From a virus: DNA of 37,662 nt. Below are positions 1 to 33,608 of the stretch, piece after piece. The stretch is from positions 1-37,662 of the IMG/VR virus record IMGVR_UViG_3300027847_001762, one strand, 5' to 3'. Both the position numbers and the translations under genes were made by a program. Within the stretch, counting starts at the first letter, position 1. Each line of letters opens with the position of its first letter. The notes under the pieces are model-generated. The model was not told the origin of the DNA. It made no database searches and was given only the letters and a program-made list of their open reading frames with translations.

Positions 1-1063
1 CTTTACGGTATTTGGCAGCCTTCTCCGTATCCGACAGATCGCGGTCTTCTTCGGGAGTGAGTTTGAAGCCGCGTACCGATTTGAACCCACCAGTCGCCTC
101 GGCGAACTCGTAGTATTCGGCCATCTCGTCAATCTCCGTGTCAGTTACCGGGGAATTGAGACGCGAGTCCCTCATGTCCAAGTTGAACTCACGTCGATCT
201 CTTTCCAGATCGCGTCGTCGCTCACTCCGATCCGCCGATCGTTCTGCACGCCGTCGACCGGTTCTGGTCGTTCGGGGGCCAAATCGCCAACCCCCGACAG
301 GACCATCACGTCGGGACCGCAGACCTGGGACTCGTGGAGTAGCCGGGCGCTCCCAAACAGTTCCCTCCTGAACCAGCATGTCCATATCTGCATCCCGCGC
401 ATCCGCATTGAAGGCAGTTGTTGCGGCAACACGAGCACGGTTGAGTTTCCGACCGAGAGCCTTCCCCTCGTACAGTTCTTCCATCAACGACTTTTTCCGG
501 CGCAATTGTCGGCGAACCTCACGAGAAACTGCGCGCTCTAGCGTGCGCCGGGCTTGGCGACGTTGATAGTTGCGGCCAAACGCTGTTGACCCAGTGCGCT
601 TTGCATAATCAGTCATGTTGCTGCACGGCATCCAAACGGTGTTCCCAGTACGGGACACACGCCTAGAAACACCGATGCATCCCAACTGGCGGGATCGCCG
701 ACGAGCCAACCGGGGAGTCGTAAACACATCCGGGTCTTCCTCATCCGGAGCCCAGGGTGCGGACTTAACTGAACCGCCGACAAGACCGCCACCAGCGATC
801 GTGTCGATGGAAGTCACACCCCGTTCAGCGAGAGGTTCCCAGTCTCGTTTGTTTTTTCCCTTGGAATTACGAGATCGGCGACGCTGCTCAACTACCCGAA
901 CGGTGTTTTTCTTGTCTTTTTTGACAAGTTCTTCGTATTCCTCCATGGTTGTGCACGGCATCCACTTCCCGTCGGGGTGCTTGTGCGCGCCAGTACAGCC
1001 CATTTCTTGGGCGAGGCGTAGCGCGGCTGCCTTGGACGCCACCAGATCGGTATCTGTCGCCAT
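1..1063 (-). CDS. Partial modular virion/polyvalent-type protein with a duplicated GC-G...WMPC motif and the shared KALGR/VQEGT module
   Basis: The frame is open from ATG at 1061-1063 to the left edge without a stop (at least 354 aa; the C-terminus lies outside). Residues about 22-45 hold a GC-x-G-x-H block followed by KWMPC and a MEEYEEL helix. A second copy (GCIG, then VWMPC and MTDY) lies about 110 residues later. Paired Cys/His suggest a small metal-binding or disulfide fold, and I recall this motif from actinophage virion proteins. A highly basic stretch and the KALGR...RDADMDM...VQEGT...ERPA module (308-463) follow, then PGLRSRR and GGFKSVR copies of the G-(L/F)-x-S-x-R linker motif (308-325, 71-88). 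The gene starts 5 nt after the 102-aa gene stops and lacks a strong Shine-Dalgarno, so it is probably expressed by coupling. The function is unknown; it belongs with the other giant proteins of the operon. Confidence 0.85.
   Translation of the reverse strand, partial: MATDTDLVASKAAALRLAQEMGCTGAHKHPDGKWMPCTTMEEYEELVKKDKKNTVRVVEQRRRSRNSKGKNKRDWEPLAERGVTSIDTIAGGGLVGGSVKSAPWAPDEEDPDVFTTPRLARRRSRQLGCIGVSRRVSRTGNTVWMPCSNMTDYAKRTGSTAFGRNYQRRQARRTLERAVSREVRRQLRRKKSLMEELYEGKALGRKLNRARVAATTAFNADARDADMDMLVQEGTVWERPATPRVPGLRSRRDGPVGGWRFGPRTTRTGRRRAERSADRSERRRDLERDRREFNLDMRDSRLNSPVTDTEIDEMAEYYEFAEATGGFKSVRGFKLTPEEDRDLSDTEKAAKYRK
308..463 (-). repeat. Shared KALGR-VQEGT module, copy 1 (partial left-edge protein)
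   Basis: Order: KALGRKLNRAR, FNADARDADMDM, LVQEGT, VWERPATP, then PGLRSRR. It is homologous to copies at 8835-8996, 15205-15353 and 32208-32421. A linker motif follows immediately. Confidence 0.85.
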
Positions 1064-1068
1064 GGCGA

Positions 1069-1377
1069 CTAGCCGCTTTGGATTTTGGCAGCAGCCTGTG
1101 TAGCGGCCTCTGAATCGTTCGGGTACCGCTTCTGATACATGCGGGCCTCTTCGATCTGCTCGGCCCACTTCTGCATCACTTCAGCGAATGGATCGTCTGC
1201 GTCTTCGTCAATGCCGAGAGTGAAGTCCTCAACGAAGTTGTTTTGTTCTTTCGGATTAATGGAGAAGGGCGGGTAGTCGACCAGAAGTGACAGTTCCTGA
1301 TGGGTTTCGGCGAGTTCGCCCATACGAGCGGCGTGCGCTTCTCTCTCTTTGGGGGAACTACCTAGTTTGTATCCCAT
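1069..1377 (-). CDS. Small acidic hypothetical protein (102 aa)
   Basis: No family is recognised. The product is 102 aa, soluble, without a signal peptide or membrane segment. Residues about 8-35 and 60-100 look helical and charged; the middle is acidic (DFTLGIDEDADDPF), and an Ala-rich helix closes the protein. The ATG overlaps the stop of the upstream 2721-aa gene (TAATG), typical of translational coupling. The next gene begins 5 nt after its stop. Conserved placement between two giant proteins suggests a small virion component, a chaperone or a connector-like accessory, but nothing in the sequence decides between these. It is called real because of the tight junctions on both sides and the lack of any competing frame on this strand. 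Confidence 0.75.
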   Translation of the reverse strand: MGYKLGSSPKEREAHAARMGELAETHQELSLLVDYPPFSINPKEQNNFVEDFTLGIDEDADDPFAEVMQKWAEQIEEARMYQKRYPNDSEAATQAAAKIQSG

Positions 1378-4300
1378 TAGTGGAAACTCCCATACGAGGG
1401 GATTAGTTCTCTGAGGCGAGCCTGATCCAGTTTCCCCTCTTTGGCCAACTTCTCGATTATCTCAGTGACTTCTTCACCGGTAACCGGATGGTCCAGCACC
1501 ATCACCGAGGCTCGGTTGGAAAGGCTGACCACGCCGCCATGCCGCTGAACCGCATCGTATCCGTAGAACGGCAGAGTATCGAAAAGGAAATGGTCTTCCC
1601 TGGAATCTAACTTTTGGACAGATGCTGGCAGTTTCCCTAGGAAGTCCCAAGCCGCTTCCAACTGTGTCGGATCAAGGTCTCCGGAGTCATGCAAATCTAG
1701 AACCTGATCGACTATCGATCCGAACTCCGTGTCTCTCCAACCAGCCGTCATGGGCTTCATTGAGCCCTTCGAACCGCCAATACCGAAACCGGAACCAGTG
1801 GGCAAAATCTTTGATGGATTGTTGGGGTCTTGAGGTTCCCGGTGGTCGGCTCGCCCTTTGACCTGCAGGCGTCCACCTGTAGCCTTTTCTGCTGCGTCAA
1901 GGGCTGCCCGAACTGCGGCAGAAAAGTTGTCCCCATCGTGCTTGATTGAAGTTGGGGCTTCGGTGTCGACAAGCCCTGCCGCACTAAGAACCCCGACGAT
2001 CGATTCGGCTTCGTCGTTGATCTCGGCAAGTTTACCCCATCCAACGAGTCTGGTTTCAGGCGTAATAAACGTCAGGGGTCCTGATCCGTAGCCGCCGAAC
2101 ATGAATCCCTTCGACACAGGATCTGATAACGAACCATCGGGTTGACGTACACGGACGGGCGGCTCTGCATTATTTTCACCGGCACCATGCACTTCGCCCC
2201 CCTGGCCTCCAACGAAGCGCGAAACGAGACGCGTCCACTGCTCCCAGTAGACATCGCCTTCTCTCGAATTGCCGTCCTTGTCCCGACCCAGGCCACGCAA
2301 CATGGGCTTGAATCCCTCACGAAGTTTGAACCTTCCCGGGTAGTCCGGATCTTCTTCGAATACCACGTCTTGGATTTCTTCGGGACCAACCATTTCCGGA
2401 AGACCACTATGTCCGGCGTGGAACCAGGAAGCGTCAATAATGTCATCGCGCGTTCTCGGTGAATCTTTGCCTTTCTGCCGTTTCTTCGCTACGTCCTTCC
2501 CAGTCGCTGTTCCGCGTCTGACTCTGGTGAGGCGTGCCAATCGATCGATAAAGGTGCTGTCAACGACCAGAGCGCCTTCGACTTTCTCCCATTGCTCCAA
2601 GTCGTCACCGGTACCGGCGAAGTACGTTGTGGCAGCGGCACCACCGAGCGGCTTGTCAACGTCACGGGCTCCACTGGTCCGGTTTTCGCTGATTCTGCCA
2701 AGTCGTTGATCGCTAGTGAGCCTGCCGAGTTTCTTCGCCTTCTTCTTGGCCCTCTTGAGTTCCATTTGTTCGAGCGGGCTCAGTTTCTTCTTCCAAGGCT
2801 GAACGCTCTTCGTCGGTCCAGCGCCACCCGTACCGGCACCTCCGGCTTGGGCTGCACGCCGCTGGGCAGCCAACTGTTGCCTGCGTATATAGGCAGCAGG
2901 CACGCCGGGAGACAGAATGGCTGTTCCGATTCGCTCCCGTATCGGTCCCTTATCCTCACCCTTGGGCATCTTCTGCCTAAATTTCCTACTCCGGCGTTTG
3001 ACGTGTTTCTTGTACTCATCCATGCTGTCGTGGCCGGCGATGGCACCCCAAACCGTTGACTTTTTGCCACCAGTTTTTGTAACACCCTTGATCTTTTCGG
3101 GAAGGGTTTGGTCCTTGGATCGCGCGATATCCAGAAACCGCTTGCGGGCTTCGGGGTGGAGATGTTCTAATGCCTCATAGTTTCCACTTCTGCGCATCTG
3201 TTGAAGAACCTGCAGAGAATCCAACAGTTTCCTCTTGGTAGTGATGCGCTGACCAACAGTACCGGTGGTTTCAAGCAACTGGACCTGGAAGGCCTGTTCG
3301 AAGGTTCGCACACCCGTGTTCTCGCCCCTACCTATCTGTTCTAATCTCCACTCGGTTACCGGCGGGGTTGGATCATCCTTGCCAATATGCCCGGATCTAA
3401 TCATCTCGGCCCTAACGGCATCCCCGAACATATCTGCGTAAGTCTGATGTTGGGTTGCATTTCCGCCAGCGAGACCACTGTCGAAACTATTAGCCCTGGG
3501 AGAGATGTCTTGTCGGCCAGACATCAGTTCTATTTCGAGTTGGTCGGCTGCGTCCTCAAAGGCTTTAGCATGCGCCGGGGACATCACCCCAGCGTCATCA
3601 GTGAGCGAATCCCAAATCTCTCCGTCGGCTGTGCCGGCTTGCCGTGGACTGTCCTCGCGGTAGAGGGTTGGAAGAGTCATCATTGTTTTGTCGGCTTCGT
3701 CACCACGTCTGGAGGCCAGACCGAGTGGACGAGCAGAACGTTGCGTTGTCGCAACACGCATACGAGCACGAGACGGTTCACGTTGTGACTGCAACCCACC
3801 GCCACCGATGGAATGCCGTTCCGCGTCGGTTATTTCTCCACCCTGACTCCAGAAGCGTTGACTGACCGCTCTCCGCGCAGCGCTTCTTTCAGGATCCGAC
3901 CACGGTGCCCCATCACGCGATGACCGCAGGCCACGCTCACGGGCCTTTTCGATTGCGGCCAATTGCTGTTGGGCAAGTTCGTTGATCTTCTTCTTGTTGG
4001 GCTTCTTTTTGCCGCGTTCGTCACCAATCTGTTCGGAAAGTCCAGCGATTGTGCTTTCGGCTTCTTCGCGGGCTTCCCTCCAGTCCGCATCCCAATCATC
4101 CGTTGTTCGACTAGAACGGTAGCCAGAGGCGACACGGCCCTTGCCCATTGCCTCACCGAGTTGTTCGCGAAGTTCAGCCTCTGACTCCTGAAGGGGTCGG
4201 ACTTGTTTCCGGAGACTATGGACAGCCTTGGTGTCGTCTTTCCCCTGGGCCTCATCGATCCGTTCGAAGAGGGGTTTGATTTTGCCATCGCGGAGTGCGT

Positions 4301-7300
4301 CGATTTGCTTATTGAGAGAATCGACTTTGGCTGTGTCCACTGCCGGCGCTTCAGGCACTTCTGTTGCGTCGTCCCCTCCCTCTGTCCGCCGCTGATCGCG
4401 TCCCTCTAGTCTTTCCGTGAGGGTTTCCCCTGCTCGTACCGAACGGAATCCACCAGTGCCGCCTGGATCGCGCTCGGCGTCTTCGGCGTATTGGAGCATT
4501 TCTGGTGATGTGCCCAGGTAGGCGACTTCACGGAACCGGACCTCTTCCGGATCCATGTTGAATCGGTCAGCCACTTCGTCCAGAGACATTCCACGCATGC
4601 GAGACTCAGCGATACGCCGATTCAAGTTTGGCTGAGTATTGAACTTCTCTTGGCCCGAACGGCCATGGGCGTGAGTGATTTCACGCATCCGAACCTCAGC
4701 CCGGTCCATGTCGTACTTCTCAGCGACTTCCTCGATGGTCATACGGAAGCCCACACGATCCTCAAAGATGCGCCGGTTTAGATCCGGCTGGGCCTCATAC
4801 CTTTCCTGGCCGGACAGCAAACTCATGTGTTCCATCTCGCGACGCCGAACCTCGACACGATCCATGTCGTACTTGTCAGCAACCGCGTCGAATGCCATCG
4901 GCGTCATGCGGTCATTGAAGATGGCTTCATTGAGTTTTTGATCCCGCACGAACGGGTCGTCGTGATGCAGGAGGTCGGGATCGGTGTCTCTCTCCGGATC
5001 AAAGTCCCGATCAATGAATGAGCGGAACCCTGCCTCGCGAGCCCATTCGATGTCATTCAGGGCTTGCCGGCCGGCTTCTTCGAGTTCATTACCTCTCGTG
5101 AACTCTTCTTGACGCATCTCATCCGTCATCCGGTTGAGTGACTCTTCGATCCGCTGATCCATCATGTCGCGGATTTCTTCTTGCGTTTCTTTCCAGTTGT
5201 CAGGATCTTGTGCGTACCGGGACTCTGGTCCGTCGTCTGGGACGTGTTTGTCTAGCCAGCCTTGGACGCCTTCGGGGTGACGTTTGAGCCACTCGGGGTC
5301 GACTTGATCGATGGTGGTGCCGTCCGATCGCATCGCTCTAACCATGGGGGGCGGATCGTTGCGTGGGTCGTATGGGTCGTTTGAGCCGCGTGAGGAGTAG
5401 AGGCCGTCTCGACGAAATCCCATGTTCCCTTCGCCAAGAGTCTGAGGGCCACCGGGGTCATTCTCGCGACCCGGGAAAGGCTGACGCCAATACTCTTGCG
5501 TCCCTCCCGGATTCTCTTCAGATGGGGCGCCAGGGTGTGCCCTCCACGTTTTGAGTTCTTCTTCGATTTCTTTCCAGTCATCTGGATCGCTGCGCTGAGA
5601 GCGCAAGCCACCTCCACCGGGGCGACGAGGATCGAGATAATCCGTGAACATCCCCTGGCCGGTCGCCAGGTTCCGTGAGAGCGTGTCGAAGTCGAGGAGG
5701 TGATATTTCACCGCACCCTGAGCAGCGAGGTGTTCGCCGGTCTCCGTGTTTATGGTTTGCAACAGTTCGCGAGTTTCAGAGTCCAGATCAGTCGCCTTGG
5801 CGATCCCTTCCCTGTTCCTATCGTTCGACTCTAAGTAAACTTTTAGTGCGCTCCGCACCTGGTCTTGCTTTTCCCGTTCGTCGAGTGCATGGCGTTTCCC
5901 GCCCTTGTCGCCTTGAGCGAAGGAACCGAGTCGCTCCTTTTGGGTGTAATCAGAGAGACTCCACATTCCAACCTTGGCTGTGCCACCCTCGGCACCGTCC
6001 ATGTCTCGGGTTTTGTCTGTACGCGGCGCTCCTTTACGGAGACTTTCGGGTGGAACGGCTCCGAGCCAGCCATTGCCGATGGTGGCGACATTTTTTAGAT
6101 CTGCGAGAATTATTTTTCTGGTGATTTCCAGTGGGCCGGCCGGCTTGTCCGGATCTGTGGGATCCTCACGGTGAACCGTTTTCCCGTGGCCGAGAATGGA
6201 GTCGACCCAGTCTTCTGTCCTCAGGTGAGGGAAGTCAGCGTTGGTGCCCTGAGCCGAATCACCCGGAGCGACCGCCAGCCGATACCGAATGTTCTCGACA
6301 TCAACAGGCATCTTGGCGGCCTTGGCTGCCTCCCGAAATTGTTCCCAATGTTCGCCGTTCATCAGGTCGAGTTGCTCTAGACGGAGTTGGTCTTTAGCCT
6401 TGAATTCTGCAAAGGTGCCAGCATTCTTTCTTCCACTCTTGCTAAGGCCGTCGTACCTTTTCCGGGAAATTCTCTCTAGGGTATCTTTGAGTACTTCTTC
6501 GGGATAGGCATCGGCATTCGTTTTACTGAGACCTGTTTCGATGGCTTCTATTCTGAGGTTGGCCGTTACTCGATCCGGGGGGAGACTCACTCCCGAGTGC
6601 TCCTCCCTTCCACCGGCGGACAATCCGAAAAAGGCAAATCCACTTCCTACCAGTGCGTCAAAGAATTCCCCACCGGGACCGTATTTCTCACCCGGTGTAG
6701 AACTACCCGATTTCATTGTCGTCGACGGCATGTTCCCTTGAGGGTCGGAAAACTTGCCGCCCGTGCTTCCGCTTTCGGCGTGCCTGCCGGCCTCGGTGTT
6801 GCGGGTGTCGATGTCGGCGATGATGTCGTGTCCCAATCGCCGGGATTGGAAACCTGGACTCTGACGGGATTCATCGTAAGCAGCGATGCGCCCATTGCCC
6901 GTGGGGTAGAAGCCCGTAACAAGAGTGTCGAGCCATTTCCTCTGATCTTCGTCCGTCCCATTCAGGGCGGTGGAGAAGAGATTCTGATCGTCGCCGCTAT
7001 CGGGGTCAACCCATTCCTCGTAGGGAATGTCATCGTCGATGGCCCTATCGAGACCGTCGTAATGTGCGGCTGCATCTTCGGGTGTAGCGAATGTGTCCAG
7101 GTCGTACAGGTCTTCGGCTCGGTTTCCGAAGGCCGAGTCCAGGTCGCGGTATTGGCCGACGACCATCCAGCCCTCTTCGCCTTCCAAGACCTCGCTTGCG
7201 CGAATGATCTCTATATTCATGTTGCCGGTGCTTATTTTGGCAACGGCGTCGCTGCCGCCGTGGAACTCTGATTCGTGCCAATCCCTGGGGTCGTCGGGAT

Positions 7301-12198: not shown

Positions 12199-12487
12199 TG
12201 TGCCTGCTCAGTATTCTGCGAACCGTTGGTTCGGTGCCGATTGAATGACGGAGCCCCCACAGGGAGGCATCCTGTGTATCCCTGAAATCGCGATCAGGTG
12301 TTGACACACTCATATCGAATACGGTTTCTTCGAGCAAAGTGTGCCGGTCTTCGTGGTGAGGGTCTGTGCCCGTTTCCAGTTCTCGTAGGCGACCAATGAA
12401 TTCGTCGATACTTTCATCTTCGTTCTGTTCGATGTCGCCATCGTCAAACAATTCGTCTCGTCTGGCTCGCCAGCGTTCGTCAGCCAT
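12188..12487 (-). CDS. Small acidic hypothetical protein (99 aa)
   Basis: The product is 99 aa and very acidic in its first half (DELFDDGDIEQNEDESIDEF), with a His-containing middle and a basic C-terminal helix (VRRILSRHNGN). No signal peptide or membrane segment is visible and no family is recognised. GCAGGAA lies about five bases before the ATG, a reasonable ribosome-binding site. The gene overlaps the 1089-aa gene by 8 nt on one side and the 222-aa gene by 11 nt on the other, supporting it as a real operon member. Head-completion proteins and chaperones often have this size, but there is no direct evidence for either. Confidence 0.75.
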   Translation of the reverse strand: MADERWRARRDELFDDGDIEQNEDESIDEFIGRLRELETGTDPHHEDRHTLLEETVFDMSVSTPDRDFRDTQDASLWGLRHSIGTEPTVRRILSRHNGN

Positions 12488-23233: not shown

Positions 23234-23253
23234 CTGGGCCTACCTTCTAATCC

Positions 23254-24969
23254 CTAATTGGAATCTTCGGCATCCTCGTTCATCAACTGGAACTCAATGA
23301 GCGACGACATGAAGTCGTCGTCCTCAACGTCGAGTTGAATAGCCTTTTCGCCACCAGCAACCCAGTTGGCTGGGATTAGTTTCGTGAGGCCGAGAGCCGT
23401 CGCGCGTTTCATGATGTGACGTTTGGCGGCGGTCTTGTCTGTGGCCCTGCCGAATGCTTGAATAGCGTTCTTGAGGTCGCCTTCTGATTCGATTGGATAT
23501 GAACCATCGGGGAGTGCCTGACCGGCACCAGCCATTTCGCCGCGCTGCTCGTCACTGAAGGCACGCTTGAGCGCGATCTCTGCGGCTTCAGCCTCGATGT
23601 CCTCAGCCTCGTCGGCTTCGTAGATGTCGTGACCGAGAATCTCTCCATCGAGAGAAACGAACACGTCGTATGACTTGCCGTCCACGCCGTCAATCTCGAC
23701 AGCGAAACAGTCAAATCCTTCGAACACGTCAGGTTCCACTGAAGCAACTTCGCCGGGGATCGACTTTGTTGCAACACCAGCAGCGTCGTTGTATCCGATG
23801 TACTCAACGACTTGACCTTCTACCGTTTTGTGCTCCAAGACGGAATCGTCCAAACGGTGGTAGCCGAGGATCTCAGCGTTACTACCATCAACGAAGACTT
23901 CGATAGCCCGATCGTCTTTGGTTGCCAAGTCGAGAACGAACATGTCGGCATCCTGTGAGTAACCGGAGTCGATGATCTTGCTGTCGAATTCGTTTTCGAC
24001 CATGCCTTCAATCTCGAGTAGTCCTGGCATACCCTTTTCGGCCATGCATCCGCCGGGACAGTCGTCACAAACCGGAGAACCGCCGGGGTAAGCCTTGCGT
24101 TCGATGGCGCAGACGTAAGCCTTGTTTCCCAGTTCTCCGGATTTGACTCCCATGCTGTCGAGTCGACGCTGACGGTAGCCGGCGTAAGTTTTCTCGTCTT
24201 CTTCAGTCCACTCTGGACCGTAGTTCTTAGAGTTGCCGACCGGGTTGCCGTCTTCGTCGTAGACCTCATCGCCTTCTTCTTCGATGTTGATCTTCTCGTC
24301 TTCGACTGCGTTCTTTAGTTCCTCTTCCTCTTCAGGACGAGGGGGCGGGACGCGTCGTGGCGGAGGCATTTCCCCTTCGGGGGCCTCTTCGGCTGGAGCC
24401 TCCAGACGCGGAGCGGGGGGAGGAGGGGGCGCTGCTGGTGCAGGGGCCTCTTCTTCTGGGGGCGGTCCCTCAGGCGGTCCAGGGGGCGGTCCAGCGGGTG
24501 GAGGAGCCCCTTCGGGGGACATGCCCTCGCCGCCTTCTGCCGGAGGCATTCCTGGCGCTTGGGGCTTTTCGGGCTTCCGCGTTCTGTGGGCCTTTTCTGC
24601 CATATTAGTTTCCTCACCGAGGTCTTCTTCTAGTGGTACCATCTTGACAGCAGTAGCCATCGCTCCACATTTACCACAAACTTTGGTATCAGACTTGTAG
24701 CCACAATCTGAAGTGCCATAAGATTTTGCGCACTTTAGGAGATCACCTTTGTCGTCTACTTGAACGACAGCCTTATCGTCGTACTCCATATTCTCGGACT
24801 CCTTGTAACGCATAGTTCCCTGGGTGCAGCCTTGGGGGCTGGAGCATTCGTTGCATGGCATCTTAGCCTCTGTACCGGCCAGGATGCAGTAGTAGTTAGA
24901 CTGTGCCTTTCTAGGTGCTCTCTGAGTATTGTATCCCACTGGCGGGCTGATCTTAGGCTGCTTGCCCAT
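23254..24969 (-). CDS. 571-aa Cys-rich / Pro-rich head-assembly candidate with PepSY-like repeats and DUF6582-like C-terminus
   Basis: The ATG overlaps the protease-fusion stop (TGATG). The N-terminus (about 25-105) has CNEC, GC, LKCAKS, DCGY and CGKCG, suggesting one or two zinc-ribbon-like knuckles. Residues 129-214 are a Pro/Glu-rich, surely disordered tract. CDDCPGGC lies near 300. It is followed by two related beta units of PepSY appearance, one with AIEVFVDGSNAEILGYH (about 320-367) and one with SYDVFVSLDGEILGHD (about 391-454). The C-terminus (about 470-542) has LPDGSYPIESEGDLKNAIQAFGRA and KRHIMKRATALG, which I recognise as a DUF6582-like domain common in actinophage capsid-maturation or scaffold-region proteins. 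Its position directly after the protease would suit a scaffold or an assembly factor; it does not look like a major capsid protein. The function is inferred. Confidence 0.85.
   Translation of the reverse strand: MGKQPKISPPVGYNTQRAPRKAQSNYYCILAGTEAKMPCNECSSPQGCTQGTMRYKESENMEYDDKAVVQVDDKGDLLKCAKSYGTSDCGYKSDTKVCGKCGAMATAVKMVPLEEDLGEETNMAEKAHRTRKPEKPQAPGMPPAEGGEGMSPEGAPPPAGPPPGPPEGPPPEEEAPAPAAPPPPPAPRLEAPAEEAPEGEMPPPRRVPPPRPEEEEELKNAVEDEKINIEEEGDEVYDEDGNPVGNSKNYGPEWTEEDEKTYAGYRQRRLDSMGVKSGELGNKAYVCAIERKAYPGGSPVCDDCPGGCMAEKGMPGLLEIEGMVENEFDSKIIDSGYSQDADMFVLDLATKDDRAIEVFVDGSNAEILGYHRLDDSVLEHKTVEGQVVEYIGYNDAAGVATKSIPGEVASVEPDVFEGFDCFAVEIDGVDGKSYDVFVSLDGEILGHDIYEADEAEDIEAEAAEIALKRAFSDEQRGEMAGAGQALPDGSYPIESEGDLKNAIQAFGRATDKTAAKRHIMKRATALGLTKLIPANWVAGGEKAIQLDVEDDDFMSSLIEFQLMNEDAEDSN
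24300..24600 (-). repeat. Proline-rich low-complexity tract
   Basis: About 85 codons of the 571-aa protein are mostly Pro, Ala, Gly and Glu (PPPAGPPPGPPEGPP, then PAPAAPPPPPAP). The DNA is a G-rich imperfect repeat of ggcggtcc-like units. The tract separates the Cys-rich N-terminus from the PepSY-like region. Confidence 0.85.
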
Positions 24970-27900
24970 CAGAGAATGTCCATTCCAAGGTCAACAAGTT
25001 TTTCGAGAAACTTCTCTACCGCCGCGATGCGTACTGGCATCATTGATTCCACTTCGGGATGGGTTCGTCCAGCCGATTCGTCTATAACCTTCAAATAGTC
25101 GATCAGTGCGCGTTTTCTCTCTATTCCACTGACTTTCGACTTCATGCTCCACCTGCCCAACACGTCGAATAGCGCATCAACGATATCTGGTAGGGCGTCA
25201 TTGTCGATCTGTATTTCCCCATCCGAGGTTTGGTGCGGATTCTTTGGCCCGTATCGAATGGATGATGAATTGAAATATTCGAAACTCTTTTTCAACTTCT
25301 GAAGAGCGCCACGTTTGACATCGTCGCGTTCTTTTCTAATTTCCACATCAAGGGAGTCGTAGACAATTTTGAAGAACGGAGAAGATTGTTTGATTAGTGA
25401 ACGATCTTTCGGGTTGCGAGCCGCACGCTGTTTGGACATGTCGCGGCCAGACGCAAGCCCGCCATCGCGTCGAGACATGAACGCGTCGCCACGCCGAGCG
25501 CCAGGTTCTGGTTCGAAGGTGGCCGGTGTGTCACGTCCCGGAACCTCTTCAATGCGGGAAGGTCCAGCGCTCAAGTCGATGGAGGCAATCAGTTCGTCTA
25601 GTCGTTCATCCGCTTCCTCGTCGGCTGTCAGCCTGCGAGCACTGCGTTCCTTCGGGGTTTCCATGGCTCGTGCATGAAGTTCGTTGTCGGAACGACGCAC
25701 CGACGGAGCCTCCAACGCGCTCTGCAAATCCTCCTCGGACAGCGCTTCGCCGGGTGTGAAGCGCGGTGTCGGCGATTCGGATCGTGGCCGTCTCTCAACA
25801 TCGTCTAGATAATGGCGATCCGAAATAACTCCTGTTAGGCCTTGTCCGAGTTGTTGTCCAAGTCGGGCTTCGTCGCGTTCCTCTTCGGCCTTCCTTAATC
25901 TCTGCAGGGCCAATGCGGTGAGTTCCTTTTTGCCCAGTGGTTCAGGGCCGAGCGCCGCGCGTGCCTGCAGGGACCGATGAAATTGTGAGCGTTGTTCCAT
26001 GGGAATATTCAAGTCGAAGTCGCGAGCCTCACGCCGTGCCAACTCTCGGAAGGCCAGCATTTGCCATGCTGTGATCTTCCAATCCTGAAGACGGGCGGTT
26101 TGAGGGGATGGGTAATCGAGAATTTGGTGGAGATGGTTCTCTTTAAGGTAGCGACCTCTGTCCATCTTGGCCATTGTCGCTTCCCGGCTCCCGGGCTCCA
26201 GTCCGGGCGGATTGCCGATTACCCGATACAGGTTGTTTCCGAATGTTTCGATTTGTGTCTTAAGGTTGGGTACGGAGTCCAAATCCGCGTCATCATCAGA
26301 TGAGATACCAGGGATCTCATCTTGGTCGTATCGATCATCCAGCACTCCGTTTTCTGCCATCCGTGAGAGTGCATGAAACGCGACTGCCGCCTTACTGAAC
26401 TCTGCTTCGTCGTGGTACTGCATTGGGCTGTCGCCGATTCCGAGGTCTTCGAGCCAGAAATTCAGTTCGTCGGCCTCGATGATCTCTTCCCACGTCCCTA
26501 TCGCTTCTCTTACTGCGAGTTCTTGTTTAATACTTCGTCCCGGTGGGCTGTTTTCTCGGCTGCCTGCGCTGGGCTGCTCTAGCCAGAAGGCTCCAATTTT
26601 GTTCAGTTCATCGGTACTCATGTCGCTCAATTCATGAGGTCTTGTTCGATGCAGTGATTCGATTTCTCCTTCGACCCCCAGTTGGTCTTCGACGGAGAGA
26701 GCGTCTTGCTCGGGTTCTTCAACCATGGCGCGGTAATGTGCTCGGGCGCCCTGCACTTCATCATCCAGGGTGTCCAAATCAACAGGTCTCATCCTGGCCC
26801 CTGAGCCGCCGGGCTCTCCCGTTGGGCCTTGGGTGTATTCGTCGTCCATTATTGCCTGCGTCGATCTTGTGTCTTCCGGTCCCCTCTCAATGCGATTACG
26901 GTTTCTTGTCTCGTCAAGATCACCACCGGACGGGATGCCTCTCGCTTCGAAGGCCGCTTCCACATCGGATCTTGTCAACAGGGGGATGCCATCACCGTCG
27001 ACATCGTCTGAAGCGTAAGTCCAGATCACGGGGTCATCGGGTTCCAGGCCGTCGCCCCACAGCGGGGTCCGTGCGCCGCTTGGACCGCCCCTCCGATGTT
27101 CCATCCATTGATCAATGGCATCAGACAAGGTTCCAACGAATTCTTCAGGGCCGGCGTAACTGCCGCCACCCATTAGGTCATAACTGCCTTCTCGCTCCAT
27201 GTCGGGCCACACCTCGCCAGTGCCGGTTCGGGAGGCGTTGGTACTCCTGAGTTCATCTTCATCACCGCGTCGAGAAGCGAGACTCCCCGATTCCCGTTCC
27301 CGCCTATGTTCGATGACCGCTTCGATGGTCTCGAAGTTCGGCCCCTCGAAGGTTTCCCCGCTGCTTATATCCCGTGCTATCCAATTTCCCGTCCGGGGGT
27401 CTTGATCTATTTCGTATTCGTCGCCAGCCAGGCGCCGTGCTGGTTCCATTGCCTGCCTTCGTATTTCGTCCCAACTGGGCGTTGTCGCGCTATCTGGATC
27501 ATCGGCCCAATCCTGGTCCTGGAATTCCTCCTCCGTTCCCCCCGTTCTCGCTACGTCCTGAGCGCGCCGACGATCCGGGTGGTCGGGAATTGGATCGATG
27601 CCCTCGCGATCGCGTCGAGAAGAGAAGCCCCATGGCGTTCGAACCGGGTTCATCTGCCCCATTACGTCGTCTTCATCTGCCCTTAGTCGAAGTTGTTCTT
27701 CTTGAGATAGAGCCTGACGGGCAGCGACACGCTCCTCAAATTTCTGATCGTCCTTTGCTTTCTGCTGACGGCGCTTTTCCTCTCGCTTCGCCCTCCACTT
27801 TTTGTTCTTTTCCATGTCTCGGGCTTCTCGCCTGCCCTCCCTTGCGACCTGTCGGGTTTCCCGATCTCCCCGTCGGGAGCGGAAGGCGCCCCCCAGATCC

Positions 27901-30900
27901 ACGACCCCTTCCAATTCGATATCATCTAGGTCGGCGTCAGGATCCTCACTCTGTCCAGGTCGCTTGCGCAATGCCTCTAGGACACGCTCCCTGTCGCGGG
28001 CCGTCCGCTTACGATCGCGCTCTTCCCGAACGGCGTCACCTGTGAGCCGCGACGCTTCCATGCTTCGTCGCTCGGCGGGATGACGCTCGGGCCTCCCTAC
28101 CGGTTCAGTTTCCCTTGACACCTGAGCGGTCCCCTGGGGATCGTCTGGAGCGTCATCCCCCTCGGGCGCCGCCTCCGTACCAACCCATCGCCTAGCCGTG
28201 TCGTCCACATCCTCAACGAAAGGATCGCCACGCTTGATGAACTTGTCGTCCTCATACTCTTCGCGGATCGTTTTAACATGCTCTCGTAGGCGACTGGCGA
28301 AAGTCATACTTCGATCTTCATCTTCGGTCAAAGTGCGACCGTTCTGATTTTCGAGATAGTCGTCAATCTGTACACCCAGCCGTTCGACCATGTCAAACGT
28401 CAGGTCTTCATCTCCGTCGAGAGTGTCCTGTAGGGAATCCCAAAATTCGACATGAGACTCATCTGCCCTGGAATCCATTGACGCATTCGCGAGCGCATTG
28501 CGCTTGGTGCCGATGTTGACATCAAGGGAGTCCATTATTCTGAGACGACGATCCCGGGCCGCCTGTTCGCCTCCGGAAGAGAGCGGCTTACCGACCTGAT
28601 CCGTAAGGCTCCGCCCACTTTCGGGATCCAACAGTCGGCGTTGCTTGCCACCAGGACCCGGGTCGAGGTCGCCGAGTCCTCGCTGAACTGCCGTAGGCGT
28701 CGTTGAATGTGAGTCAGGAGATTGAGGTCGTCTTTCACGACGCTGTGGCGAAGGTGAGGTTTTAGCAGCATCGGCTATCCGCTGCCGGCGTTCTCTGCGT
28801 CGTCTGGCAACAGCCAGACTCGGAGTCGCACGCTCGTCCCGGGTTTGGATTTGTTCAAACACTTCGCCGAGAATTCGATCGTAGTCAGCGGCCCTCAGAC
28901 GCTCTTCGGGGGGCGGCCAGTCAAAGAGTTGTGGCTGGCTGGAGCGAGGATTGAAATTGATCATCAACTCGTCTGCCTGCTCGTCGAGACTCAGTTCATC
29001 CCAGTTCTCCGGCTTGACTTCCTCCCATTTTTGTCCCACGAATCGCCCCTGCCCGGGACCCTGGTTTACCGCTTCGTCGCGCCTCTTCAGGCCCCCACTA
29101 GACATCTCGGGCTTTTCCCTGGATGATCGAAAACCCCGACGTTCCCCGTACCGTGCCATTCCCCTGCCGGCTGGGCTGTGGTTCGCGAAATAGTCGTGGA
29201 GCCGAATCCAATCTCGTGGTGACAACTGTTCCCCGCCACGGTCATAACGTCGAACCAAGTCTTGAACTACATGGAAGCCACCTTGCTGCCGTGCCCAATG
29301 AACCAAATCACCCTGAAGCCGTGGTGTGATATCTGCAGGTGCACCGTTGTTGGGACGCCGCGAAGCAAAGCCATGCGGTCGGTCAGGGAACTGTGTGTCC
29401 TTGACGACGTTAGGAGAAACCCATTTGCCCTTCTTGGAGAAGGCCGCCATTTCGAGAACATCTCGGCCAGGTTTGAAATAGCCATCTGGATCTACCGCAT
29501 CAAGACGGGCATACGATTCAAGAATCTGATTGTATTCAGCAGAATCCAGACTGACTTTGCCGCCCTTGGCATTCCGAAGTTTTTCATCGTATGCAGTTAG
29601 ACCGCGTTCGATGTTGGGATGTCCATCGTATTTGGCTCGCGTGGACTTCAGCCCATCACTGATTTCACCGACCTCTTCTTCAGAAAGAGACACTTCCATT
29701 CGACCACCATGGTGGGCGTTGACCCGGTTTCGGGGATCGGATCTAATCGCTACGGCAGCACTATTTAAAAGTTCTGCGACATGCGGCTCTCCGTCGCCGC
29801 GCAGGTTGTTGGACAAGTTGTGAAGTTCGTCAACCAGACGCGCTCGATCATCGGGGATGGCGGGGGAGGCTTCTTTCCCGTCGAGGATCTTTTGGGCTTT
29901 ATTGAAGGTCTCGGCTTCCGCCCTATCTAGTCCCCTGTGGTCCCTCACCCTATTGGTGTGCCTCTTCAGTTTCTCACCCAGAGTTGGTGTTTCGGTGGGG
30001 AGGCCCATCCTGTCAACAACTGTGCCGTCGGGCTTTATGAGGTACGCCTCCGTGCCCTTGATGTGGTCGTTGAAGGTCTCGCCCAGACTGGCAGTGTGCT
30101 CTGGCAGCAGGAAGGCGGCCTTATCGGAAGAAATACCTCCGTAGACATATGTGCGTCCCCCTTTGAAGGTGAGTACGAGTTCTTCATCGCCTGCCCTGTA
30201 ATGCGCATGGCTGATGGCTGTGCTGCCGAACGTGGGTATGTCGTGGTCTTCCCCCATGCCACGGCCTCGCTGTGATCGGAAGCCCTGACCGGTCGGCGTG
30301 AACGTCTCCAGGCTCCCGGTTGTTGCGTCCAGCCGTCTTGATGGTTCCATGTTCGCTGCTCGCGCAATCATTGATTCATCGGGCTGCGTTTCGATCCGCA
30401 TGTTGCGGTCGTAGTTGTCGACCTTCTCGGCAGCCTCTAGAACTTCGTTTGCCCCATTCCGTGAATGCTGGCTGACACTTTCTTCGGCGCCGTATTGCTC
30501 TTGTTCCTTTTCCTCCATATCTTTTCTGAGGTCCCGCGCTGCATTCCACTCGTATTCGAGAGACGACTCCCAGTGGGGCTTACCATCGGAGTCGTCAGTT
30601 TCTAGATTCTCGAAGTAGCCCGCCCTGTCCCTGGGGGATCTGTGCTCTCCCACAACATATTCAGGAGTGAACAACGCCCGGAGGCCGTCATAGTCGTCGT
30701 TTTTTAAGAACTCTTTGATTGTGTCATCTGTGACGTATGCGCCGTTCGGCAACTGGCTGGGTGCCAACTTGTCAGTGATGGTGTCAATGCGATCTCTAAG
30801 TTGTTCGTCAAGGTCTCGCAGTTCTCCGACTACCTCGTTGCGTTTTTCAATCGCTTCTTCGAGGTCGTGATTTTCCTCTCTGAACCCGCCAAGAATATTG

Positions 30901-33608
30901 TCGTATTCGGTCCTGAGTGTGTCCCAGTCATCCATGAGCGAATTCCATGATGCTTCGCCACCGGGGAATTCTTCCAGGGAGGGATATTTGCGAGTATCGA
31001 GGTCATAGTCGAGACCTAGGGTCGCATCGAAATGCGGATTCTTTACCAAGAAGTCAAGCATTGCCTCACGGGCGCCTATGAGATCTCGCAGATTCCTGTG
31101 TGCGTCTTGGCCATGGAAATTTCTCATGGAAGCCAATCCTGCTGGCTTCATCGGGGGAGGGTTCGAGAGGGCGGTGACCTCTCTTTCGTTGAAGCCCTGA
31201 CTACGCAGATCGGCGGCCCGACGGCTGGCAAGACCAGTCTCCGTTTCTCTGTTCCAAACAACCCTCTCGTCACGAGCGGGTTTGGGGGTGCGGGAGGCCC
31301 CTCGTTGCATCCGCCGACCTCCCTCTCTGTCTGGGGCTACTTCGGCAGCCCGGAGATCAGACCTGTTTCTGGTGGATTCCAAACCCCCGTCGGGAGCCGC
31401 CCACTCGAGAAAACGTCGCTTACTCCTTTCCCTCTGTTGGTTGCTTCCGCCGCGAGCAACCACCAGCATCTGCAGCCTCCTCATTTCAGGAGTCACCTTC
31501 TCCACGGCGATGCCGATATCGGAAGGTTTAAAACCGCCGTCGAGAAGTTCCCCGCTATTAGCGACCAAATCGCCCCTGCTGTTTGTTCGAGCGGGAATGT
31601 TTTTTCTGGGACCGCGAATGCCTCTCCGCTTGGATGAGGTTTGCCTGATCATCCTCACCGGCACAACCTGCATGCCCAGTCGTTGTGCGGCAGCCAGCCT
31701 GTGGTTGCCTTCGTCAAGAGCCAGGTCGCCGGTTTCGGGGTCGTATTGGACTATCAACGGATTCTTGATGCCGTTGGTGCGGATGTCCTCCGTCAACTTG
31801 TCCAAAGCCTCTATTTCATAGTCGTTTTCTAATTCCCAAGTACGCATTTCTCCGGCACGAGTAGCGGCATCTTCATCCCAACCATTGGAGACTGAGCCGC
31901 CGATGTTGCCCGGCATGTCTTCGAAGAAAGACATGGGGACTAGTTCGGTCCTGTCGAAGGTGTCGAACTCGGTCAGGGCGGGATGGGGGTAGAGGGGGTC
32001 GCTTACGTCCTGAATTCCGTAAGCCTCAATGATCTTTCGGGCCTGATCAGCACGGAACGCTTCGTATTCATCGCGTGACATTTTCCCCATGCGTGCTTTG
32101 GACGGGGGGCGCTCATCCATGGCGACGCCCTCTGCTGGGGCGTCCGGGGTTGGAGTGTCAGGGGTTTCTTCTTCCCCCTCTTCGTCCCAATTGCGTCCTT
32201 GTAATAGGCGTCTACTGGAACGAAAGCCACGAGATGGCCCGGGTTTGCGAGGAACTGCTGGTCGCTCCCATGGTGTGCCTTCTTGGACAATCATGTCCAT
32301 GTCGGCGTCTCTGGAGTCTGGATCGAAGCCTCGAAGGGCCGCTCCGGCCCTACGAACTTTTCCCAACCCTCCACCACCGCCTCGGGGAAGGCCACGACCA
32401 AGCCTCCGGCCTAAGGCCTTTGTAGCCGTCTCAACGGCTTCGATGAAGTCGGGCGTCGCCCCCGACTTGATGACGATTCCCTCTTCGGTCACCTCAGCGA
32501 TTACGCCGTGGTAGTCGATGATCGGATCGAGCAGTGACTTGGTGACGAAAGCGTCTTCAAGTTTGCATGAAATAACTAGTTGATCAGTTCCCGGCATCCA
32601 GTTCGCGTCACTCTTTGCGCTGTCGTCGCTGTCCAATTTCTGAACGATACGCATGACTCTGGGCATGACCGTTTCTTGAGGGGTGTGTTCGTAGCGATTG
32701 GCCGGATTCACTTGTGGCTTCGCTTGAACTCCGGGTGGCTTGAATGGGGCGTACACCATTTGTGGAGCAACTCGTTCGGGCTGACCCAACATGAACCCAC
32801 AATCCGGGTGGTAATGAAAGTGGACCCGGTACAGGGCCGTCCCGTTGTCGGAACGTTGGACCTGGAAAATGGCCACACCGTCGGTTGTGCTGATCAGTTT
32901 GATCGGCTGTGGCGAACGGGATTGCAACTCCAGTTCCAATTTGGCATCGTGTTGATCGGACAGGTTCTCAGTCCGTGGAGTCTCGACGGGCATCATCGCG
33001 AGCATCCCGTCCTTCTCATAAAGATCATCGAAGGTGAATTCAAGATCGTCGGCTTCTGTATCTGGACGCTCCAGAACAGCAGCGTTGGCACCCTTGACGG
33101 AGATGGTTCCTGTCAGTTGATTCGCGCCATGCAGTACGGGGGAGCATTCGTACAGTTCCACTTCATGCAAAATGTTCGCTTGTCTAACCGGGTCGAATGT
33201 GGCGTTGATCGTTTTGTAGCCGATCGACCATTCCTGTTCGCCTCCGAAGAAGGCGACATTGGCGAAGGCTTCCCGACCCTTCTCGGATTCGAGGTTGAAC
33301 TGAACTCGTGCATATAGGCCCCCGACACCTCCCGCTTTCATTTTTTCTGGGAGGCGTGGGTCGCTGGGTCCCACTTCGTGGATATCCAGGACTTTCCCGA
33401 TGGGATCGTTCCAGTTGTGACCCCAAACGACGCGTGGCTTTCGCCGTTGAAGACTGCCGGTGAAGGCTCCCGGCTGGATAATGTCGCCGACAGAATCCTT
33501 GTTGCCGATGCCGGCCACGAAGCACTCAACGATACCCTGAGCCTTGTTAACACTAACCTGGCCGTTGGTCGCTTTGATTTGGATGTCTGTTTCCATACCT
33601 ACAGGCAT
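24969..33608 (-). CDS. HK97-type (S78) prohead maturation protease fused to a giant polyvalent tail (2879 aa)
   Basis: The ATG at 33606-33608 follows GGGAG six to seven bases upstream. Residues 1-175 are an S78 prohead protease: GDIIQPGAF, VVWGHNWNDP (catalytic His64), EWSIGY (catalytic Ser128) and HEVELYECSPV near 148-158. Such proteases are normally about 200-250 aa, so over 2600 residues are extra. After a beta-rich linker (180-390) comes the shared module (about 396-461; KALGRRLG, RDADMDM, VQEGT, WERPAVP) ending in GFRSSRR. Then come a ParB/Srx-like domain (about 600-660: DIRTNGIKNPLIVQ, DEGNHRLAAAQRLG), a KTSC domain (about 1125-1188: TAISHAHYRAG, LTFKGGRTYVYGG, GETFNDHIKG), long Arg/Asp/Glu-rich disordered stretches with about 11 G-(L/F)-x-S-x-R motifs, and a helical C-terminus. 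The protease would process capsid or scaffold precursors, and possibly its own tail. Confidence 0.92.
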   Translation of the reverse strand: MPVGMETDIQIKATNGQVSVNKAQGIVECFVAGIGNKDSVGDIIQPGAFTGSLQRRKPRVVWGHNWNDPIGKVLDIHEVGPSDPRLPEKMKAGGVGGLYARVQFNLESEKGREAFANVAFFGGEQEWSIGYKTINATFDPVRQANILHEVELYECSPVLHGANQLTGTISVKGANAAVLERPDTEADDLEFTFDDLYEKDGMLAMMPVETPRTENLSDQHDAKLELELQSRSPQPIKLISTTDGVAIFQVQRSDNGTALYRVHFHYHPDCGFMLGQPERVAPQMVYAPFKPPGVQAKPQVNPANRYEHTPQETVMPRVMRIVQKLDSDDSAKSDANWMPGTDQLVISCKLEDAFVTKSLLDPIIDYHGVIAEVTEEGIVIKSGATPDFIEAVETATKALGRRLGRGLPRGGGGGLGKVRRAGAALRGFDPDSRDADMDMIVQEGTPWERPAVPRKPGPSRGFRSSRRLLQGRNWDEEGEEETPDTPTPDAPAEGVAMDERPPSKARMGKMSRDEYEAFRADQARKIIEAYGIQDVSDPLYPHPALTEFDTFDRTELVPMSFFEDMPGNIGGSVSNGWDEDAATRAGEMRTWELENDYEIEALDKLTEDIRTNGIKNPLIVQYDPETGDLALDEGNHRLAAAQRLGMQVVPVRMIRQTSSKRRGIRGPRKNIPARTNSRGDLVANSGELLDGGFKPSDIGIAVEKVTPEMRRLQMLVVARGGSNQQRERSKRRFLEWAAPDGGLESTRNRSDLRAAEVAPDREGGRRMQRGASRTPKPARDERVVWNRETETGLASRRAADLRSQGFNEREVTALSNPPPMKPAGLASMRNFHGQDAHRNLRDLIGAREAMLDFLVKNPHFDATLGLDYDLDTRKYPSLEEFPGGEASWNSLMDDWDTLRTEYDNILGGFREENHDLEEAIEKRNEVVGELRDLDEQLRDRIDTITDKLAPSQLPNGAYVTDDTIKEFLKNDDYDGLRALFTPEYVVGEHRSPRDRAGYFENLETDDSDGKPHWESSLEYEWNAARDLRKDMEEKEQEQYGAEESVSQHSRNGANEVLEAAEKVDNYDRNMRIETQPDESMIARAANMEPSRRLDATTGSLETFTPTGQGFRSQRGRGMGEDHDIPTFGSTAISHAHYRAGDEELVLTFKGGRTYVYGGISSDKAAFLLPEHTASLGETFNDHIKGTEAYLIKPDGTVVDRMGLPTETPTLGEKLKRHTNRVRDHRGLDRAEAETFNKAQKILDGKEASPAIPDDRARLVDELHNLSNNLRGDGEPHVAELLNSAAVAIRSDPRNRVNAHHGGRMEVSLSEEEVGEISDGLKSTRAKYDGHPNIERGLTAYDEKLRNAKGGKVSLDSAEYNQILESYARLDAVDPDGYFKPGRDVLEMAAFSKKGKWVSPNVVKDTQFPDRPHGFASRRPNNGAPADITPRLQGDLVHWARQQGGFHVVQDLVRRYDRGGEQLSPRDWIRLHDYFANHSPAGRGMARYGERRGFRSSREKPEMSSGGLKRRDEAVNQGPGQGRFVGQKWEEVKPENWDELSLDEQADELMINFNPRSSQPQLFDWPPPEERLRAADYDRILGEVFEQIQTRDERATPSLAVARRRRERRQRIADAAKTSPSPQRRERRPQSPDSHSTTPTAVQRGLGDLDPGPGGKQRRLLDPESGRSLTDQVGKPLSSGGEQAARDRRLRIMDSLDVNIGTKRNALANASMDSRADESHVEFWDSLQDTLDGDEDLTFDMVERLGVQIDDYLENQNGRTLTEDEDRSMTFASRLREHVKTIREEYEDDKFIKRGDPFVEDVDDTARRWVGTEAAPEGDDAPDDPQGTAQVSRETEPVGRPERHPAERRSMEASRLTGDAVREERDRKRTARDRERVLEALRKRPGQSEDPDADLDDIELEGVVDLGGAFRSRRGDRETRQVAREGRREARDMEKNKKWRAKREEKRRQQKAKDDQKFEERVAARQALSQEEQLRLRADEDDVMGQMNPVRTPWGFSSRRDREGIDPIPDHPDRRRAQDVARTGGTEEEFQDQDWADDPDSATTPSWDEIRRQAMEPARRLAGDEYEIDQDPRTGNWIARDISSGETFEGPNFETIEAVIEHRRERESGSLASRRGDEDELRSTNASRTGTGEVWPDMEREGSYDLMGGGSYAGPEEFVGTLSDAIDQWMEHRRGGPSGARTPLWGDGLEPDDPVIWTYASDDVDGDGIPLLTRSDVEAAFEARGIPSGGDLDETRNRNRIERGPEDTRSTQAIMDDEYTQGPTGEPGGSGARMRPVDLDTLDDEVQGARAHYRAMVEEPEQDALSVEDQLGVEGEIESLHRTRPHELSDMSTDELNKIGAFWLEQPSAGSRENSPPGRSIKQELAVREAIGTWEEIIEADELNFWLEDLGIGDSPMQYHDEAEFSKAAVAFHALSRMAENGVLDDRYDQDEIPGISSDDDADLDSVPNLKTQIETFGNNLYRVIGNPPGLEPGSREATMAKMDRGRYLKENHLHQILDYPSPQTARLQDWKITAWQMLAFRELARREARDFDLNIPMEQRSQFHRSLQARAALGPEPLGKKELTALALQRLRKAEEERDEARLGQQLGQGLTGVISDRHYLDDVERRPRSESPTPRFTPGEALSEEDLQSALEAPSVRRSDNELHARAMETPKERSARRLTADEEADERLDELIASIDLSAGPSRIEEVPGRDTPATFEPEPGARRGDAFMSRRDGGLASGRDMSKQRAARNPKDRSLIKQSSPFFKIVYDSLDVEIRKERDDVKRGALQKLKKSFEYFNSSSIRYGPKNPHQTSDGEIQIDNDALPDIVDALFDVLGRWSMKSKVSGIERKRALIDYLKVIDESAGRTHPEVESMMPVRIAAVEKFLEKLVDLGMDIL
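30045..30228 (-). other. KTSC domain in the protease fusion
   Basis: Residues about 1125-1188 read STAISHAHYRAGDEELVL, then TFKGGRTYVYGGIS, then ASLGETFNDHIKGTEAY. This is the KTSC pattern: a strand starting S-x-x-I, a hydrophobic strand ending F-x-x-G-x-x-Y-x-Y, and S-x-G-x-x-F-x-x-x-I(K/R). KTSC domains are small and often found on phage and polyvalent proteins; a nucleic-acid role has been suggested. Confidence 0.8.
31640..31810 (-). other. ParB/sulfiredoxin-like domain in the protease fusion
   Basis: The sequence LTEDIRTNGIKNPLIVQ, then LALDEGNHRLAAAQRLG, then MQVVPVRM, matches the ParB N-terminal fold (an 'I...G...P..V' strand-helix and a GxHR-type box, here GNHR). This domain is common in polyvalent proteins and can act as a nuclease or NTPase. 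It stands at about residues 600-660, close to the N-terminal side of the tail. Confidence 0.8.
32208..32421 (-). repeat. Shared KALGR-VQEGT module, copy 4 (protease fusion)
   Basis: Order: KALGRRLGRG, a Gly-rich stretch, FDPDSRDADMDM, IVQEGT, PWERPAVP, then SRGFRSSRR. It has an inserted Gly/Arg stretch relative to the other copies. It marks the junction between the protease-containing head and the polyvalent tail. Confidence 0.88.

Follow-up and report, generated by a model that had tools for sequence, protein, structure and literature searches.

Short motifs of lineage-specific spelling delimit the modules of giant phage proteins and may punctuate them for cleavage

We analysed a linear IMG/VR virus record of 37,662 bases, called the window in what follows and meant as the whole stretch of DNA. 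Its leftward genes encode, in this order, the portal, proteins of 2879, 571, 2494, 1089, 222, 663 and 2721 aa, and a partial giant protein at the left edge; the terminase gene is read rightward. A short peptide motif, in its canonical form G[LF]xSxR, recurs in the giants, which combine biochemically different domains, in the window Peptidase_S78, ParB_N, KTSC and ART-PolyVal, all except S78 under the Pfam cut-off. The features of the window are the following.

35900-37225, rightward: terminase
33706-35688, minus strand: portal protein, without the canonical motif
24969-33608, minus strand: 2879-aa giant, with the S78 protease, a shared module, ParB-like, KTSC and other modules
33105-33533, minus strand: Peptidase_S78 (prohead protease) domain, residues 26-168 of the 2879-aa giant
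31632-31823, minus strand: ParB_N domain, residues 596-659 of the 2879-aa giant, under the Pfam cut-off
30054-30224, minus strand: KTSC domain, residues 1129-1185 of the 2879-aa giant, under the Pfam cut-off
15749-23233, minus strand: 2494-aa giant, with zincin-like and ART-PolyVal domains
21473-21487, minus strand: HEYTH zincin motif, residues 583-587 of the 2494-aa giant
18467-18682, minus strand: ART-PolyVal domain, residues 1518-1589 of the 2494-aa giant, under the Pfam cut-off
12480-15749, minus strand: 1089-aa protein, with the shared module and a HEFSH zincin-like motif at residue 509
1377-9542, minus strand: 2721-aa giant, with 10 canonical and 2 variant copies of the motif
2-1168, minus strand: left-edge partial giant, with DUF3721 and the shared module, complete in L106

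The contig L106 overlaps the window, is 100% identical to it over the common part and completes the left-edge protein (1693 aa, 4 copies of the motif), after which comes the major capsid gene. The giants are thus encoded among head and packaging genes, in the interval from the portal (33706-35688 in the window) to the capsid gene (seen in L106). The end of the completed left-edge giant (L106:7770-12848), immediately before the capsid gene, resembles SEGE, which we take to be the third ART motif. In L107, an 84% relative, the counterpart of this giant has 3005 aa with 8 copies and additionally carries a Zeta toxin domain; the counterpart of the 2721-aa giant is there two ORFs of 756 and 1732 aa (L107:2323-9789), by a gene split or a sequencing frameshift. 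The giants of relatives add ArdC-N, MPTase-PolyVal, sigma-70 region 4, UvrD, RNase_T and Zeta toxin domains (Pfam).

Among the matches listed, the closest cultured portals, from Gordonia and Brevibacterium phages, are 39-43% identical. The 2721-aa giant had no match among cultured relatives, and the 2879-aa giant had none past query residue 256 in the listed matches to cultured phages (25 of 79). In the 18 proteins examined of Cantare, GMA6 and Hanem no such code was found; the Hanem capsid has EIKS three times and Hanem gp29 has other repeats.

The canonical motif was found 26 times in the window (left-edge partial 2, 2721-aa 10, 1089-aa 1, 2494-aa 3, 2879-aa 10) against about 0.7 copies expected as the sum of per-protein shuffle means (Poisson tail at 0.67 about 4e-32). 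No canonical copy was present in the portal, the terminase or the 571-, 222- and 663-aa proteins, among the ten window genes scanned. A sequence-only reading of the window had counted about 30 copies, confined to five giants between 71 and 32228, and had proposed a scan against shuffled sequence. Its confinement and the enrichment were borne out, and both ends agree with the last and first residues of the copies that begin at residues 361 and 461. Its count is a fair one when the canonical copies are joined by two with another residue at position 2, both in the 2721-aa giant (Tyr in GYRSSR at 1807, Met in GMRSQR at 594), and by several near-copies such as AFRSRR, SLASRR and AFMSRR. The copies are placed as follows.

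2879-aa giant, minus strand: copies at residues 461, 742, 792, 824, 1109, 1319, 1413, 1492, 1994 and 2717
32211-32228, minus strand: GFRSSR, residue 461 of the 2879-aa giant
30267-30284, minus strand: GFRSQR, residue 1109 of the 2879-aa giant, 20 aa before the KTSC domain
29355-29372, minus strand: GFASRR, residue 1413 of the 2879-aa giant, before the NNGAP..ITPRM module
29118-29135, minus strand: GFRSSR, residue 1492 of the 2879-aa giant, after the NNGAP..ITPRM module, the same place being the natural C-terminus in L034 and L053
2494-aa giant, minus strand: copies at residues 1331, 1339 and 1885, none upstream of 1331
15153-15170, minus strand: copy at residue 194 of the 1089-aa protein
2721-aa giant, minus strand: canonical copies at residues 264, 394, 722, 897, 1312, 1380, 1698, 1871, 1916 and 1941
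308-325 and 71-88, minus strand: copies at residues 282 and 361 of the left-edge partial

That the copies lie in disordered linkers was looked at for the copy at residue 461 of the 2879-aa giant, which is probably disordered, being in a stretch of pLDDT below 50 in an AlphaFold2 model.

A DNA-level repeat is ruled out, as all 26 copies differ in DNA (26 distinct 18-mers). Because of this, and because codon use for Gly and Arg in the copies is near background and Ser is skewed to TCN (24/26), selection on the motif is, as read from these sequences, at the protein level. In five relatives at 89-91% portal identity (L011, L013, L016, L018, L019), identity reached 0.88-0.97 at the fixed motif positions and only 0.70-0.82 over the 15 residues on either side; the same comparison was uninformative for the near-identical L010 (0.95 vs 0.97) and for the distant L023 (0.40 vs 0.32) and L025 (0.42 vs 0.38).

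A search with the portal found 381 relatives, and 80 were kept. A protease ORF was present in 76 of the 80 portal loci and was usually fused to a giant in the longer ones. For 35 of the 48 ORFs of more than 1000 aa (counted from the listing), the gapped peptide with the strongest over-representation was a variant of one motif, for which five spellings were distinguished.

Spelling A, G-[LF]-[RAS]-S-x-R: 101 non-redundant sites
Spelling B, [RK]-[LF]-S-S-G-[RK]: 116 non-redundant sites
Spelling C, G-M-R-S: 82 non-redundant sites
Spelling D, F-A-S: 8 non-redundant sites
Spelling E, S-S-R-S: 13 non-redundant sites

Loci without an assigned spelling (L084, L082, L080, L076, L074, L075) were excluded from the spelling tests. 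Common to all five spellings is a Ser at position 4, and to four of the five a bulky hydrophobic residue at position 2, features that are partly fixed by the patterns used. This common core suggests a recognition element, without pointing to the scissile bond. The sequence-only reading had placed a cut after the Arg; we do not retain this position, as the last Arg, frequent in spelling A, is less frequent elsewhere, and Ser 4 is what all of them have.

Long ORFs carry mostly one spelling with few copies of the others, L025, L044 and L046 being mixed. Moreover, one spelling is used per genome across separate giant genes: G018 encodes four giants with 9, 8, 4 and 4 GMxS (one incomplete at a piece edge) and two giants of G027 have 17 and 7 [LFM]SSG; in G018, G012, G021 and G027 some ORFs end at the edges of the retrieved pieces. 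In the portal tree, A corresponds to one clade (14 rows, support 99/97) and B to another (23 rows, 100/100); C is found in a clade of 11 rows (100/100), in L078 and L081, which are sister to an E genome, and in L041. The recurrence of C in separate places of the tree therefore indicates that spelling changes quickly, and close relatives do switch, L069 having SSRS beside the GMxS of L078 and L081. Within several clades the spelling is stable. The giant of L126, an independent contig from a MAG and a member of the window's clade, carries 10 copies of G[LF]xS. In the giants of L084, L127 and L128 no clear code is seen, which, like the mixed spellings of L025, L044 and L046, counts against cleavage at the motif. 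L126, L127 and L128 are contigs of the group that were binned in MAGs named Phycisphaerae or Gammaproteobacteria, and they are probably mis-binned phage.

We also looked at the ORFs of two 91-kb contigs, G017 and G027, each read in pieces. Results showed that ORFs of at least 600 aa with at least 2 copies, a group defined by copy number and including two ORFs outside the portal-capsid interval, hold 16 of 20 copies (1.5 expected) in G017 and 26 of 26 (0.6 expected) in G027. The remaining ORFs hold 4 copies (2.5 expected) and none (1.4 expected), so these contigs do not support the view that the motif simply comes with large protein size; a 2261-aa G017 protein without copies is no control, just 0.03 being expected in it. 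Outside the portal-capsid interval, a 1265-aa ORF (G017:C1:67687-71481) has 3 copies of its own genome's spelling (0.63 expected) and a 1446-aa ORF (G027:C1:19800-24137) has 2 of its own (0.13 expected).

The position of the copies relative to domains was analysed with a Pfam scan of 23 motif-bearing giants and large ORFs, of which 16 were used; the seven left out had no or weak domains, or were the left-edge partial (DUF3721, no copy inside). In the 16 giants, none of 164 copies fell inside counted domains, where 17.6 were expected, and none of 147 (11.6 expected) when the S78 and DUF6321 domains were removed. As homologous giants are not independent, a reduced set was also counted, with 0/64 copies inside against 4.9 expected (p about 0.007). 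Three copies would lie in two weak matches that were not counted: those at 792 and 824 of the 2879-aa giant in LytR_C (residues 784-846, E 0.06), and the one at 2254 in L034 in Birna_RdRp_C (E 0.28).

In addition, the first 120 aa of 34 giants contain 3 copies against 17.0 expected from density, the three exceptions being in L078 and L069, where the protease is split off in front, and in L107, where the motif precedes the first Met of the ORF. It looks as if the first module needed no mark; the mark therefore stands between modules and does not belong to every single one.

Some modules allow their borders to be followed closely. Among six B-type giants scanned, the five with ArdC-N all have the motif 7-10 aa before it. 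The unit of ArdC-N and MPTase measures 320-321 aa from motif to motif in three giants and reaches the natural C-terminus in two. In the ArdC unit of L034 (317 aa), residues 5-280 match residues 9-283 of a solved ArdC of 297 aa (6i89). The correspondence of an inter-motif segment with a complete stand-alone protein is clear for the ArdC unit only, the UvrD and RNase_T units having matched just parts of solved chains.

Gene fusions were also considered. There were 75 C-terminal cases, 60 of which were viewed, and two kinds of event were judged real, concerning the NNGAP module and the splitting of the protease; the other C-terminal cases were discarded, as they looked like contig or retrieval edges, and no motif was present in 8 N-terminal cases. 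In L034 and L053 the giant ends with the NNGAP module; A, C and D genomes have the module inside the chain, and its end bears the local motif in 10/11 and 7/8 aligned giants (among the 60 of 75 cases listed), L013 having GSRSSR instead. L069, L078 and L081 have a split-off protease, and in them the chain is broken at the KALG module and not at the motif, which counts against cleavage at the mark.

Two shared modules accompany these proteins, the first at four places in the window.

32241-32420, minus strand: KALGR...DADMDMIVQEGTPWERPA in the 2879-aa giant, immediately before the first motif
15216-15353, 8838-8996 and 329-463: the other three copies of the KALGR module
22613-22684: second module, FRCPPGTPxANQFTDxxGxxCF, residues 184-207 of the 2494-aa protein

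The first, of the form KALGR..(basic)..DADMDMxVQEGTxxERPA, occurs once each in four motif-bearing proteins, at most about 30 aa before the first motif; its version in relatives, DxDGxVQEGTPFxRPAIPG, is calcium-loop-like. It may be a packaging element. The second is nearly invariant in ten aligned zincin proteins and is echoed in the 663-aa protein (window 11081-11143) as YRCPEGFQYGGRFTDSELSTC.

The sequence-only reading had set the copies at domain borders, namely after the shared module, around the ParB-like and KTSC domains and after each ART-like domain. The shared module and KTSC agree with this, by the distances given above, and the ParB-like domain does so more loosely (135 aa before, 83 aa after). 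For ART the statement fits loosely only, the one Pfam-matched domain, in the 2494-aa giant, having a motif 179 aa before it and the next canonical copy about 300 aa after. Across the group, that the motif delimits the modules of the giants is well supported by sequence comparison.

We then compared homologous positions in giants of different spellings. In BLAST alignments, the local spelling was found near homologous motif sites in 237 of 698 comparisons, against 179 of 8995 control positions lying more than 25 residues from any query motif; the comparisons are not independent and the difference is large. The looser G[LF]xS was used for clade A, two 663-aa-type proteins with loose matches were kept, and portals, still present in the preceding version, were removed. 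For example, the site before the NNGAP module reads GFASRR in the window, KLSSGRE in L034, GFASSGK in L057 and GFSSRR in L027, and the site before KTSC reads GFRSQR in the window, GMTSSR in L081 (by alignment) and GFSSAR in L027. The linkers at module borders in which the copies sit are poor in hydrophobic residues and poorly conserved.

The most economical reading, toward which we lean with modest confidence, is that the motif would be the cleavage punctuation of injected polyvalent polyproteins. The giants between the portal and capsid genes would each string together self-contained modules (proteases, ART, ArdC, ParB, KTSC, helicase and others) and would presumably be carried in the head for injection, and the short peptide in their disordered linkers would mark the end of one module and the start of the next. 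A phage protease, either the S78 heading the first giant or the zincin-like metallopeptidase encoded close by, would cut at the mark and release the modules, during head maturation or after injection, and each lineage would have its own spelling as mark and reader changed together. The cleavage code imagined by the sequence-only reading thus survives in that a motif delimiting polyprotein modules fits the comparative data, and not in the cut after Arg nor in the fused protease as reader. Some copies are too closely spaced to part modules, being 8 aa apart in the 2494-aa protein and 25 and 32 aa apart elsewhere, and this counts against cleavage.

A fuller proposal is that these phages produce their injected effectors, tens of them, as a small number of giant chains that are separated at a short code; the code would be exchanged as a whole from one lineage to the next, at homologous sites and in separate genes alike, and its protease reader with it. 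We put it forward tentatively, stopping just short of calling it probable. If true, a DNA phage would have a cleavage code that changes fast, legible from sequence alone and usable to split giant proteins of undescribed function into functional units.

Which protease might read the motif was considered for both candidates. The S78 is encoded first, its H64, S128 and E149 are invariant in a 39-row alignment, within conserved stretches, and the protease of the 2879-aa giant looks active. Its core is 0.80-0.86 identical between spellings and, within spellings, 0.94-0.97 (C), 0.98 (B) and 0.86 (A, window to L027), a comparison confounded by phylogeny; 87 of 143 core columns do not vary at all, and the catalytic surroundings hardly do across spellings. 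These values, together with a capsid protein without a copy, give no support to the fused S78 as the reader, the role given to it by the sequence-only reading. Lineage-specific differences near the catalytic residues, seen by eye at residues 43-46 and 134-148 (others for example at 79-93; window 33105-33533), are possible specificity determinants. A sequence search for solved relatives of the S78 stretch gave none, and Foldseek on the AlphaFold2 model of the protease gave nothing at E 0.001, its matches to herpesvirus proteases having E values of about 0.3 and 0.6. In the AlphaFold2 model the motif tail was disordered and not docked in the S78 protease, a further point against cleavage.

T4-type prohead proteases cut the capsid protein and cargo at one motif, and the capsid protein is expected to be the main substrate of S78. 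L106 and L107 belong to the window's own clade, and their capsid proteins lack G[LFMY]xSxR, which counts against cleavage at the motif. A capsid cleavage site written in the same code was not found, and of the candidate steps seen by eye in the N-arm (K-T, K-S, K-D) none was preferable. In three B-type genomes, L090-L092, the capsid has an LSS string (LSSREIKSIGE) at the border of the N-arm that is absent from the other capsids seen, possibly by chance.

The zincin-like N-terminal part of the 2494-aa protein has HEXXH counterparts in 10 relatives among the loci examined. H583, E584 and H587 are invariant in nine aligned relatives, and a downstream Glu is conserved in those long enough; the zincin call rests on these features only, the AlphaFold2 model of this part having a mean pLDDT of 50. 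A Pfam scan of five such relatives found no zincin, and a search for further zincin relatives in viral contigs returned only copies of the window's own sequence. Genomes of different spelling share 0.15-0.31 identity here; inside a spelling the value is 0.32-0.50 for C, 0.81 for B and 0.28 for A. As the S78 is as similar between spellings as within spelling A, and the zincins are divergent even among genomes of the same spelling, no clear co-variation with the code is seen for either. The zincin-like metallopeptidase is a candidate on a par with S78.

Other explanations were weighed against cleavage. The motif could be a docking or sorting signal, as the sequence-only reading had named among its alternatives, whose copies bind a protein of the head, be it the scaffold, the portal or the inner surface of the capsid, avidity pulling uncut giants into the head. 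In favour of this, the motif is short, multi-copy, located in linkers, lineage-specific and absent from the capsid protein itself, and encapsulin targeting peptides are a precedent on an HK97-fold shell; however, there is no reason to expect that a tag would shun the N-terminal module, as seen in the 34 giants, or would abut module starts as exactly as the motif does before ArdC-N, and the once-per-protein KALGR..QEGT module would already look like a packaging element. We consider docking unlikely, if the main rival and worth keeping in mind. A host factor (protease, chaperone or binding partner) reading the motif after injection, with a spelling that follows the host, would account for the switch between L069 and its relatives L078 and L081 while the S78 core changes little; the stability of spelling within several clades counts against it, and we judge it improbable. 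Finally, a by-product of module shuffling, or generic Gly/Ser/Arg linkers that nothing reads, would agree with the poorly conserved border linkers and is already disfavoured to the point of being very improbable, given 26 copies of different DNA with near-background Gly and Arg codons, fixed residues better conserved than their flanks and the local spelling at homologous sites.

Cleavage at a lineage-specific mark thus stays our preferred reading. As the motif predicts module termini and differs by lineage, a single proteome of virions or infected cells would put the polyprotein hypothesis to the test. Uncharacterised phage proteins of 2000-4000 aa could also be divided with it into units for folding, searching and expression, and it offers a system where a short code appears rewritten at many sites in concert.

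Encapsulin targeting peptides are short, lie in disordered cargo tails and dock on an HK97-fold shell. Their sequence is not known to be related to the motif, which here has many copies between modules and is depleted at the N-terminal module. The prohead proteases of phiKZ and T4 cut several packaged proteins at a short degenerate motif. Likewise, the prohead protease gp245 of SPN3US cuts several packaged proteins, some several times, at the short degenerate motif AXE (PMC10052503). The window's group resembles SPN3US, as far as the consulted part of that paper goes, in that a would-be short degenerate motif recurs in presumed packaged proteins, here known from the sequence alone. On the contrary, the cleavage in SPN3US is a demonstrated one, and its identified cuts, other than self-cleavage, take off N-terminal propeptides, whereas here a putative cleavage motif stands between modules (PMC10052503, in part). 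The group also differs from SPN3US, phiKZ and T4 processing, in the portions of that work consulted, in that its motif varies by lineage and is missing from the capsid protein.

The closest likeness is with the polyvalent proteins of phages and conjugative elements, which Iyer et al. 2017 liken to RNA-virus polyproteins, proposing release by embedded peptidases and zincins as the peptidases that process them (PMC5512222). In the consulted part of this survey they are likewise multidomain giants, near virion genes in phages, with ART-PolyVal, ArdC-N, MPTase-PolyVal and ParB-like domains and peptidases; there, however, the peptidase is mostly a zincin and an assemblin-like peptidase is described as always C-terminal, whereas the S78 here is N-terminal. 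The same part of the survey makes no mention of a recurring border motif or of a lineage-specific code (PMC5512222), and the consulted parts of the literature found by our search, including PMC5512222, PMC9503650 and PMC10052503, describe neither the motif nor a signal placing cuts in polyvalent phage proteins. In conclusion, that polyvalent phage proteins are processed like viral polyproteins was already proposed, and what the motif adds is a candidate signal for where.
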